From Procambarus clarkii (Eukaryota; Arthropoda; Malacostraca; Decapoda; Cambaridae): a stretch of DNA of 64,000 nucleotides. The stretch lies in contig NC_091234.1 in assembly GCF_040958095.1 (NCBI RefSeq), positions 5,013,207 through 5,077,206 on the forward strand, written 5' to 3'. A program made the translations under genes and the position numbers. This document shows, piece after piece, positions 17,931-64,000 of the stretch; position 1 is the stretch's first letter, and each line of letters starts with the position of its first letter. Below the pieces are notes generated by a model. It did no database searches and had not been told where the DNA came from. It saw only the letters and a list, made by a program, of their open reading frames with translations.

Positions 17931-17971
17931 TTAACTGAATATTTGAACCCCCAGGTTTATGTGAAGGAATT

Positions 17972-18092
17972 TACTGGTGATAATACTTCATACATACAGT
18001 CCACTTTGAAATTAAAAATAAGTAATAAAAATAAATATAAATACAGTCTGCTTTAAACTAATCGAAAATTTAAATAAATTAATCACCAGTAG
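17972..18092. repeat. Hairpin-like AT-rich element (left)
   Basis: TACTGGTGAT at 17,972 and its complement ATCACCAGTA near 18,082-18,091 flank AT-rich sequence with two similar blocks (TACAGTCCACTTTG and TACAGTCTGCTTTA). The size fits a small inverted-repeat element; no flanking duplication was established. Paired copy at 63,840-63,960. Confidence 0.4.
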
Positions 18093-18119
18093 ATTTCCCA
18101 CAAGGGGCTTCTCCTTGCT

Positions 18120-19802
18120 ATATTGTTAAGACCTAGAGGAATGTGTCTATACCCTCTGGAAGGTCATTTACATGTATTAGAAACAGGATGGGGCCAAGTA
18201 CAGAGCCCTGTGGGACTCCGCTGGTGACATTTCGCCACTCTGATGCCTTTTCCCCCTCACAGTTACTTGCTGTTTGCTATTGCTTAGATACTCCCTTATC
18301 CACTAGAGCACTTTACCTTTTACTCCTGCCTGTTGCTCCAACTTTCGTAACAGCCTTTTATGGGGTACTGTGTCAAAAGCTTTCTGACAGTCCAAGAAAA
18401 GGTAGTCTGCCCACCCTTCCCTTTCTTGCCTAATTTTTGTTGCTTGGTCATAGAACTCTATTAACCCTGTGAGGCACGATTTACCATCTCTGAACCCATG
18501 CTAGTGGTGTGTTATAAAGCTATTTCCCTCCAGATGCTCTATGAGCCCTATTCTCAAGATCTTTTCCATCACCTTGCATGGTATACAAGTTAGGGAAACT
18601 GGCCTGTAGTTCAGTGCCTCTTGCCTGTCACCCTTTTTTATATGGGAACTTCATTAGTTGTCTTCCAGCTTTCTGGTAGGTCTCCCGTTTCCAGTGACTT
18701 GTTATATAAAGAGTGGCACGCTTAGTGCTTCTGCACCTTCTTTTAGAATCCACGGTAAGATTCCGTCAGGCCCAAAAGCCTTTGTCACATTCAGCTCCCT
18801 CAGATTGCTTTTGACCTCATCACTGGTGAGGTCAAAATCCTCCAAGATTGCTTGGTTTGCCTCCTCCTCATTCATAAATAAATAAATAAACATATAAATA
18901 AATTTTTATTCAGGAAAAGCACATACATAGTTGATTTACAAACATATTGTTGGATTTATAGATAGAGCTAGTACATATAATACCTAAAGACACCAATATG
19001 CGTTTAAAGACACCAATATGCGTTTCGGGCAAGGGGCTTGCCCGATTATTTAGCTCATGGGCTTCTCCTTGTTCTTTTGTGAAGACCTCCTGGAATCTCT
19101 TGTTGAGTTCTTCACGCACCTCCTTGTCATTCTCTGTGTATCTATTCTCCCCTTTTCTCTGTTTCATCACTTGTTCCTTCACCGCTGTTTTTCCTCCTGA
19201 TATGCTGTGGAGCAGCTTTGGTTGGGTCTTAGCTTTACTTATAATGTCATTTTCATACTGTCTCTCTGCTTCTCTCCTCACTATGATGTACTCATTTCTG
19301 GCCGCCTTGTATCTCTCCCTGCTCTCTGGCGTTCTGTTATTCCTGTAGTTTCTCTATGTTCTTTTACTCAATTGTTTCGCTATCTTTCATTCCTGGTTGA
19401 ACCATGGTTGAACTTCTGTTGCTTTTCACTTTTCTCCTTTTGGACAGGGATAAATCTATCTCCAGCTTCCTGGCATTTCTTCGTGACATAGACCATCATA
19501 TCCTGTACATTCTTCTCTGAGTTCTGTTTCCCATGGTATTCCCCTTAGGAAGTTCCTCATCTCATCATATTTTCCTCTTCTGTAATTAAGTCTTTCTTGG
19601 GCCAGAGTCTGACGAGGGCCTGTTTTTAGTTTTTTATCTCCTCATGTGCTGCACTTAGTTATCTGCAGTTCACTTATAGTTTCCTTCATGTCATTCATTT
19701 CATCCCTGAGTTCCCTCCATGCCTGAGCAATAAATTCCATGTATAGGTCTTCCTGTTCCTCTCCGCCAACTTTGGTCTGTTTATTTACCATCCTGCTAGA
19801 AA
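18120..19802 (-). mobile_element. Decayed CR1-like LINE with ORF1 start joined to ORF2 (left)
   Basis: The minus strand reads an ORF1 start near 19,790 with a coiled-coil-like stretch (AWRELRDEMNDMKETISELQ), then directly ORF2 mid-region pieces (frames 19,281-18,910 and 18,893-18,702, e.g. VTKAFGPDGILPWILKEGAE) and reverse transcriptase toward 18,130. The endonuclease is absent, so the copy carries a large internal deletion plus many stops. An AATAAA-bearing repeat is inserted at 18,874-19,049. Confidence 0.8.
18874..19049 (-). mobile_element. Short retroposon-like insertion with AATAAA end (left)
   Basis: In minus sense it starts near GGGCAAGCCCCTTGCCCG and contains CCCGAAACGC, a 20-base direct duplication around AAACGCATATTGGTGTCTTT, ACTAGCTCTATCTATAAATC and CCTGAATAAAAATTTATTT, ending in ATTT repeats. 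It interrupts the LINE reading between EAHEL and NEEEANQ. Probably a SINE or LINE 3' remnant. Paired copy at 62,882-63,057. Confidence 0.6.
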
Positions 19803-20024
19803 TGTGTATTCACCTAGTTGTGCTTGCGGGGGTTGCGGTCTGCGCTTTCGGCCCGCCTATGAACTGTCAATCAATTAACTGTTACTAACTACTTTTTTTC
19901 CTTTGCTTCTCCCCCCCCACACACACACACAAGCACACACACACACACACACACACACACACACACACACACACACACACACACACACACACACACACAC
20001 ACACACACACATACACACACACAC
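19803..20024 (-). mobile_element. SINE 3' half with long (AC)n/(GT)n (left)
   Basis: The minus strand shows a (GT)n run, then GGAGAAGCAAAG, GTAGTTAGTAACAG, GATTGACAGTTCATAGGCGG and AACCCCCGCAAGCACAACTA, ending GTGAATACAC. This is the SINE middle and tail without a tRNA head, in opposite orientation to the next SINE. The decayed LINE starts right at its 3' end. Confidence 0.7.
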
Positions 20025-20034
20025 CCTCGTAGGG

Positions 20035-61907: not shown

Positions 61908-61918
61908 CCCTACGAGGG

Positions 61919-62126
61919 TGTGTGTGTGTATGTGTGTGTGTGTGTGTGTGTGTGTGTGTGTGTGTGTGTGTGTGTGTGTGTGTGTGTGTGTGTGTGTGTT
62001 TGTGTGTGTGTGTGGGGGGGGAGAAGCAAAGAAAAAAAAGTAGTTAGTAACAGTTAATTGATTGACAGTTCATAGGCGGGCCGAAAGCGCAGACCGCAAC
62101 CCCCGCAAGCACAACTAGGTGAATAC
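61919..62126 (+). mobile_element. SINE 3' half with long (GT)n (right)
   Basis: GT run 61,919-62,013, then the SINE middle and tail to GTGAATACAC; partner of 19,803-20,024. Confidence 0.7.
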
Positions 62127-63815
62127 ACATTTCTAGCAGGATGGTAAATAAACAGACCAAAGTTGGCGGAGAGGAACAGGAAGACCTATACATGGAATTT
62201 ATTGCTCAGGCATGGAGGGAACTCAGGGATGAAATGAATGACATGAAGGAAACTATAAGTGAACTGCAGATAACTAAGTGCAGCACATGAGGAGATAAAA
62301 AACTAAAAACAGGCCCTCGTCAGACTCTGGCCCAAGAAAGACTTAATTACAGAAGAGGAAAATATGATGAGATGAGGAACTTCCTAAGGGGAATACCATG
62401 GGAAACAGAACTCAGAGAAGAATGTACAGGATATGATGGTCTATGTCACGAAGAAATGCCAGGAAGCTGGAGATAGATTTATCCCTGTCCAAAAGGAGAA
62501 AAGTGAAAAGCAACAGAAGTTCAACCATGGTTCAACCAGGAATGAAAGATAGCGAAATAATTGAGTAAAAGAACATAGAGAAACTACAGGAATAACAGAA
62601 CGCCAGAGAGCAGGGAGAGATACAAGGCGGCCAGAAATGAGTACATCATAGTGAGGAGAGAAGCAGAGAGACAGTATGAAAATGACATTATAAGTAAAGC
62701 TAAGACCCAACCAAAGCTGCTCCACAGCATATCAGGAGGAAAAACAGCGGTGAAGGAACAAGTGATGAAACAGAGAAAAGGGGAGAATAGATACACAGAG
62801 AATGACAAGGAGGTGCGTGAAGAACTCAACAAGAGATTCCAGGAGGTCTTCACAAAAGAACAAGGAGAAGCCCATGAGCTAAATAATCGGGCAAGCCCCT
62901 TGCCCGAAACGCATATTGGTGTCTTTAAACGCATATTGGTGTCTTTAGGTATTATATGTACTAGCTCTATCTATAAATCCAACAATATGTTTGTAAATCA
63001 ACTATGTATGTGCTTTTCCTGAATAAAAATTTATTTATATGTTTATTTATTTATTTATGAATGAGGAGGAGGCAAACCAAGCAATCTTGGAGGATTTTGA
63101 CCTCACCAGTGATGAGGTCAAAAGCAATCTGAGGGAGCTGAATGTGACAAAGGCTTTTGGGCCTGACGGAATCTTACCGTGGATTCTAAAAGAAGGTGCA
63201 GAAGCACTAAGCGTGCCACTCTTTATATAACAAGTCACTGGAAACGGGAGACCTACCAGAAAGCTGGAAGACAACTAATGAAGTTCCCATATAGAAAAGG
63301 GTGACAGGCAAGAGGCACTGAACTACAGGCCAGTTTCCCTAACTTGTATACCATGCAAGGTGATGGAAAAGATCTTGAGAATAGGGCTCATAGAGCATCT
63401 GGAGGGAAATAGCTTTATAACACACCACTAGCATGGGTTCAGAGATGGTAAATCGTGCCTCACAGGGTTAATAGAGTTCTATGACCAAGCAACAAAAATT
63501 AGGCAAGAAAGGGAAGGGTGGGCAGACTACCTTTTCTTGGACTGTCAGAAAGCTTTTGACACAGTACCCCATAAAAGGCTGTTACGAAAGTTGGAGCAAC
63601 AGGCAGGAGTAAAAGGTAAAGTGCTCTAGTGGATAAGGGAGTATCTAAGCAATAGCAAACAGCAAGTAACTGTGAGGGGGAAAAGACATCAGAGTGGCGA
63701 AATGTCACCAGCGGAGTCCCACAGGGCTCTGTACTTGGCCCCATCCTGTTTCTAATATATGTAAATGACCTTCCAGAGGGTATAGACACATTCCTCTAGG
63801 TCTTAACAATATAGC
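62127..63815 (+). mobile_element. Decayed CR1-like LINE with ORF1 start joined to ORF2 (right)
   Basis: Partner of 18,120-19,802. Plus-strand pieces: MVNKQTKVGGEEQEDLYMEF at 62,142, then frames at 62,651-63,022 and 63,039-63,230, and reverse transcriptase remnants ([19 protein letters not shown]) to about 63,800. It has the same internal deletion as the left copy. The insertion at 62,882-63,057 is the AATAAA-bearing repeat. Confidence 0.8.
62882..63057 (+). mobile_element. Short retroposon-like insertion with AATAAA end (right)
   Basis: Partner of 18,874-19,049, with the same internal 20-base direct duplication. Confidence 0.6.
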
Positions 63816-63839
63816 AAGGAGAAGCCCCTTGTGGGAAAT

Positions 63840-63960
63840 CTACTGGTGATTAATTTATTTAAATTTTCGATTAGTTTAAAGCAGACTGTATTTTATTTAT
63901 TTTTATTACTTATTTTTAATTTCAAAGTGGACTGTATGTATGAAGTATTATCACCAGTAA
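63840..63960. repeat. Hairpin-like AT-rich element (right)
   Basis: Partner of 17,972-18,092: TACTGGTGATTAA and ATTATCACCAGTA at its ends. Confidence 0.4.
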
Positions 63961-64000
63961 ATTCCTTCACATAAACCTGGGGGTTCAAATATTCAGTTAA

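Follow-up and report, generated by a model that had tools for sequence, protein, structure and literature searches.

The window analyzed here, a 64,000-nucleotide stretch of the Procambarus clarkii genome, consists mostly of the two arms of a large palindrome and the short unpaired spacer between them. Window base 1 is position 5,013,207 of the chromosome-scale sequence C85, in an assembly of 4.03 Gb in 2,308 sequences; coordinates are window bases, those below zero or beyond 64,000 being on C85 to either side of the window. Flanks of 100 kb per side, and then 20 kb further on the right, were added, and we call the stretches between N runs contigs A, B and C. The structure is very probably a real spaced inverted duplication that arose from a single fold-back event, with about 50 kb or more copied. 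Its main parts are:

1-43,963, plus strand: left arm within the window, with its left-only insertions, placed by inverted pairing; the arm begins at about -21,058
45,781-64,000, minus strand: right arm within the window, placed by pairing; it extends to 76,450 and resumes in the following contigs, ending at about 149,313
17,931-22,637 with 64,000-59,334: arm pair, inverted
22,633-26,697 with 58,884-54,820: arm pair, inverted
30,915-35,633 with 52,532-47,811: arm pair, inverted
41,923-43,963 with 47,824-45,781: arm pair, inverted
43,964-43,984, no strand: 21-base junction insertion between the arm end at 43,963 and repeat E at 43,985
43,974-44,005, no strand: perfect hairpin with a 15-bp stem and a 2-base loop across the junction; absent from the E copies L003, L004 and L005
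43,985-45,780, no strand: unpaired spacer, made up of the interior of repeat E and running on into the right arm by comparison with E copies on C54, C59 and C60
44,271-44,958, no strand: 688-bp repeat nested in E, with a probable 4-bp target duplication

Arms, flanks and arm divergence

In a self-comparison the arms pair colinearly and in inverse orientation at 98.7-99.4% identity, which bears out the mirror order noted in a preliminary description of the window. The inner ends at 43,963 and 45,781, with a spacer of 1,817 bp between them that has no pairing partner, are also as first read there (about 1.8 kb). The outer start of pairing given in that description, 17,931/64,000, is merely the window edge: on the left side homology reaches -21,058, on the right 149,313, and most of 1-17,930 is left arm too. 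The left arm spans 65.0 kb, its own insertions included, while 48.9 kb of right-arm sequence is in hand (45,781-76,450, 126,107-129,450 and 134,451-149,313), plus a gap of unknown length. N runs occupy 76,451-76,950 (500 N) and 129,451-134,450, and the N-free stretch from -99,999 to 76,450 contains the left flank, the left arm, the spacer and 30.7 kb of the right arm. Chance similarity or plain shared repeats are ruled out by colinear pairing over the roughly 65 kb of the left arm at about 0.5% divergence. Genome-wide probe searches, each scoring 40 candidates, placed full-length matches of a 2-kb arm probe at three sites, namely the left arm, the right arm and a false copy of the latter (described below); the other matches were partial and resemble dispersed repeats.

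The outer flanks are unrelated as far as examined and have diverged repeats alone in common. Between the left flank (-100 to -21 kb, 79 kb) and the right flank (149-184 kb, 35 kb), the best match of at least 250 bp is 86.1% identical. The left arm joins its unrelated flank at -21,058, and a 3.5-kb probe from that flank found no near-identical second copy among the candidates scored, the next best match standing at 92%.

Substitutions between the arms, binned per kb, amount to 186 in 36,989 columns, or 0.50%, over 41 of the 47 printed bins, six having been removed by hand (long interspersed nuclear element [LINE]/(AC)n, minisatellite); all aligned arm columns together give 344/41,715, or 0.82%. 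At the DNA level, the few differences per hundred residues of the preliminary description are overstated. Across the 41 bins the divergence is even and Poisson-like (chi-squared per degree of freedom, 0.99), which together with the unrepaired arm-specific insertions leans against gene conversion between the arms, although uniform conversion would be compatible with it. Bins holding the minisatellites at 10,286-11,624 and 12,071-12,662, with units of 33 and 42 bp, diverge more between the arms, up to 7.65% in one kb.

Repeat E and the junction

Copies of E on C54, C59 and C60 run from 43,985 into the right arm, minus 44,271-44,958. In all three copies that were read (L003, L004 and L005, on other chromosomes, at 86-88% identity), E is unbroken, nested repeat aside, from 43,985 through 45,781 and further within the right arm, as far as 46,778 in two copies and 46,422 in the third. 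Because E is continuous through the spacer and the right arm, the old order is kept there, and the left arm is the part that was added, at 43,963/43,985. The spacer is unduplicated and, in the ancestral order, forms one stretch with one of the arms, as expected of a fold-back duplication. All six matches outside the window that reach the left end of E (on C54, C59, C60, C1 and C28, and a partial one on C55; 40 candidates scored) start at 43,985 or 43,986, that is, at spacer base 23 or 24. In 5/5 E copies without the nested 688-bp repeat the two halves overlap by 4 bases, suggesting a 4-bp target duplication of that repeat. An open reading frame (ORF) at 44,881-45,573 in E has no Pfam match at an E-value of 0.001.

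The 21 bases between the arm end and E are most likely a fold-back scar. Bases 43,964-43,973 are ATTAC twice, a motif also found just inside the arm end. The following 11 bases (43,974-43,984) are the exact reverse complement of 43,995-44,005, within E, and this inverted copy adjoins TATG/CATA, as in a templated insertion. The three aligned E copies match the window only from TATGTCCATA onward (CATGTCCATA in L004) and lack the hairpin. Perfect hairpins with a stem of at least 12 and a loop of at most 4, after removal of AT-rich and low-complexity ones, number 21 in 284 kb, a count that includes mirrored copies and those in the false duplication; by our own estimate, the chance of one of them overlapping the insertion is about 0.4%.

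A template switch, intrastrand or to the sister strand, probably produced this arrangement: repeat-rich DNA, about 50 kb or more in length, was copied inversely, and the 1.8-kb spacer was left unduplicated. A strand synthesized leftwards through E would have halted at ...TATGGACATA, and its 3' CATA would have snapped back onto its own TATG two bases off. The snapped-back end may then have been extended by 11 bases and released, the short ATTAC copies being made after release, before it re-annealed 1.8 kb back at 45,781 and copied the whole inverted arm from there. While the junction sequences are observed, we infer the order of these steps. Afterwards the arms would have diverged evenly (0.50%) and gained independent insertions.

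A fold-back duplication is a known kind of mutation. The spaced inverted duplications described by Hermetz et al. (2014; PMC3907307) have spacers of 766-70,466 bp (median 3,428; 21 junctions), with short inverted homology at 13 of the 21 junctions and inserted bases at 5. Like those, the palindrome has an unduplicated spacer (1.8 kb here) and inverted homology or extra bases where the spacer meets the inversion; unlike the cases set out in that report, it is interstitial, its copy is diverged and roughly 50 kb or more long, and no deletion or telomere capture was seen. At yeast breaks, Yu et al. (PMC11724301) describe short inverted templated insertions, most of about 5-34 bp, primed by inverted microhomology; the insertion here would be of the same kind, with 11 bases and putative priming by 4. 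Their example at MATa has an imperfect 10-bp microhomology and a 41-nt loop, whereas the loop here would be 2 nt, and the product ends they describe were joined to the other break end, whereas here the end would have continued into a large inverted copy. The structure fits the fold-back duplications of Hermetz et al. as well as the short insertions of Yu et al.

Contig structure and rival explanations

Part of the right arm recurs on contig B in direct orientation, beyond the first N run:

45,091-64,000, no strand: window part of 31.4 kb of repeated DNA, with a direct copy at 94,767-126,106 (1 mismatch), read as a false duplication

Over its full length the first copy, 45,091-76,450, aligns to 94,767-126,106 over 31,383 columns, with one mismatch and 60 gap openings. 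Single-base indels make up 57 of the 60, and the first copy stops exactly at the 500-N run. The two copies have that gap between them and differ by sequencing-type errors only, with no heterozygous differences. We take the pair to be a false duplication, an unmerged overlap of two contigs of one haplotype. With its intervening gap, one substitution and indel errors, it fits the 'homotype' false duplications of Ko et al. (2022; PMC9516828), for which read depth is described as a main criterion.

When 61 differences between contigs A and B were scored against the left arm, 22 favored A and 35 favored B, three had no counterpart and one was a tie. From 46.7 to 61.7 kb the left arm sides with A in 21 of 22 scored differences and with B in one, although for 53,124, 54,549 and 54,826, which fall in or beside a right-only LINE, the comparison used a different LINE or (AC)n copy in place of the matching site. 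Between 68.4 and 73.1 kb the left arm sides with B in 34 of 35 and with A in one, many of these differences lying in a minisatellite where the matching unit is uncertain. Since the A-favoring and B-favoring differences are separated, the quality of each contig drops toward its own end, the pattern of an unmerged overlap. For the A/B indels in the spacer, the E copies back contig A at 3/3 (two on three copies, one on two well-aligned copies), which indicates that contig A, to which the window belongs, can be trusted to the right of the fold-back.

The first 17.8 kb of contig B (76,951-94,766; L020-L022) are minisatellite-rich and have only short matches within the region. A 1.9-kb probe from this start matches C5 in pieces at 94-100%, and 76,951-94,766 as a whole is colinear with C5:41.211-41.229 Mb, at 97-99% outside tandem arrays and about 86-91% inside them, with 91,484-91,763 unmatched. 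Two array-poor pieces carry 21/3,596 and 36/4,214 mismatches relative to C5, a difference that another C5 haplotype might show. The switch from C5-like DNA to E falls at the end of a minisatellite, and we read the start of contig B as a chimeric contig end carrying C5 DNA. A false duplication and a foreign contig start at this locus would mislead copy-number or synteny analyses. The doubt that the preliminary description cast on the assembly was therefore well placed for these two features, whereas the form it took there, a head-to-head misjoin of haplotypes, is disfavored.

In such a misjoin, the assembler would have joined two haplotypes of one single-copy locus, an origin between which and an old true duplication the preliminary description left the choice open, proposing to compare arm divergence with heterozygosity. 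Computed here, the comparison sets 0.50% against the 0.6-0.9% between the start of contig B and C5, the only allelic-looking value; the two are similar, and divergence was dropped as decisive evidence either way. That near haplotype-like figure lends the misjoin some credit, as does the presence in the same assembly of an unmerged overlap adjoining a foreign contig start. However, the left flank, the inner arms and the spacer all lie in one N-free stretch, the flanks are unrelated over 79 kb on the left and 35 kb on the right, an inverted, templated insertion within repeat E marks the junction, and the contig sequence is reliable across the right part of the spacer and a little further. Allelic divergence across 60 kb is usually patchy, so the evenness of the arms counts against a misjoin as well, and we consider it unlikely. 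E continuity, the templated insertion, the unrelated flanks and the accuracy of the contig favor a true duplication.

Fold-back chimeric reads occur in long-read data, and contig B suggests that chimeras arose in this assembly; yet a palindrome built from such reads, through a missed adapter or ligation, is most improbable here. A missed-adapter read is a molecule folded on itself, and its arms would be identical, whereas these differ by 0.50%; moreover, they carry arm-specific insertions with target duplications, and the outer arm continues in further contigs. It is also very improbable that the true spacer is larger and that contig B shows the real neighbor of the right arm in the 17.8 kb preceding 94,767. 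Contig B does join these 17.8 kb, with no N gap, to E at the equivalent of 45,091, but three other E copies are continuous through that point, and of the 22 A/B differences scored up to 111.4 kb, 21 set contig B apart from the left arm, while the three spacer indels are errors of contig B. The colinearity of the 17.8 kb with C5 ruled out the DNA before 94,767 as the right arm's inner neighbor.

Several points weigh against a real fold-back duplication. A search around the outer end of the left arm did not recover the part of E that was lost at the junction and is common to L003 and L004; only the E neighbor from L005, a dispersed repeat, matches the left flank there (77-86%, -28.9 to -23.7 kb). 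The outer right arm lies beyond two N gaps, with a contig order that comes from scaffolding, although this order does match the left arm. Arm divergence is of the same order as that between the start of contig B and C5. Finally, the genome searches can miss true matches, as a 10-kb repeat-rich query did not recover its own locus.

If real, the duplication constitutes a base-resolved evolutionary case of the fold-back mechanism described in patients and yeast, and its paired arms show retroelement insertions alongside their empty sites, the states after and before insertion. We tentatively propose that the birth scar may have been kept base for base and that the arms, having escaped gene conversion and deletion, may change independently of each other and so offer a clock by which retroelement insertions can be timed.

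Arm-specific insertions and other repeats

The arms differ by the following insertions:

35,634-41,922, minus strand: left-only LINE with two long ORFs; 14-bp target duplication, right-arm empty site at 47,811-47,824
26,698-30,914, plus strand: left-only segment with LINE (27,497-30,954); near copy at 1,515-4,976
52,533-54,819, minus strand: right-only LINE segment at the corresponding (AC)n site
58,885-59,333, no strand: right-only 449-bp insertion; 5-bp target duplication, left empty site at about 22,633-22,637
1,539-4,938, plus strand: left-only LINE between (AC)n stretches

Insertions that occurred after the duplication include the LINE at 35,634-41,922 and the 449-bp element. The preliminary description counted four arm-specific LINE insertions: between 17.9 and 64 kb all four insertions are real, and LINE sequence was recognized in three, not in the 449-bp one. 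The ORFs of the LINE at 35,634-41,922 measure 647 and 1,248 amino acids stop to stop, the second with endonuclease, reverse transcriptase (RT) and RNase H domains, and its right-arm empty site is intact. This LINE looks young, with uninterrupted ORFs, a perfect target duplication and presence in one arm only. At about 26.7-30.9 kb and 52.5-54.8 kb the arms carry different LINE sequence at one (AC)n site.

Of 37 ORFs listed, seven were given to Pfam, and five match, all to RT, endonuclease or RNase H domains (one of the five, at 14,489-15,508, under the curated cut-off). That the matching ORFs encode retroelement domains suggests no function for the palindrome, and nothing else points to one. 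Palindrome P8 of the human Y chromosome, with arms of 37-38 kb and a spacer of 3.4 kb (PMC6790999), belongs to the same size class. As described there, P8 has genes and Y palindromes are homogenized by gene conversion; here no host gene was recognized among the seven ORFs, divergence is even and the arm-specific insertions are unrepaired.

Further repeats lie toward the outer ends of the arms. At -17,529 to -12,004 (L017), a tandem array with a 288-bp unit is followed, 23 bp away, by the same array inverted; its right-arm partner is only about 100 bp at 142,114-142,208. The outer end of the right arm holds a tandem duplication of about 5 kb, 145,011-149,968 and 152,077-156,972 (L027 and L028), whose copies are 91-96% alike and include E-like sequence.

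The LINEs at 1-4,977, 20,418-26,709 and 27,497-33,386 follow one another head to tail, all in the same orientation and bordered by (AC)n runs, and look as if new copies had targeted the (AC)n tail of older ones; Pfam searches on two of them gave endonuclease and RT matches, without an RNase H match. Four transfer RNA (tRNA)-like matches, two of them barely over threshold, are mirrored between the arms (20,035-20,105, 35,334-35,404, 48,040-48,110 and 61,837-61,907) and are perhaps tRNA-derived short interspersed nuclear elements.

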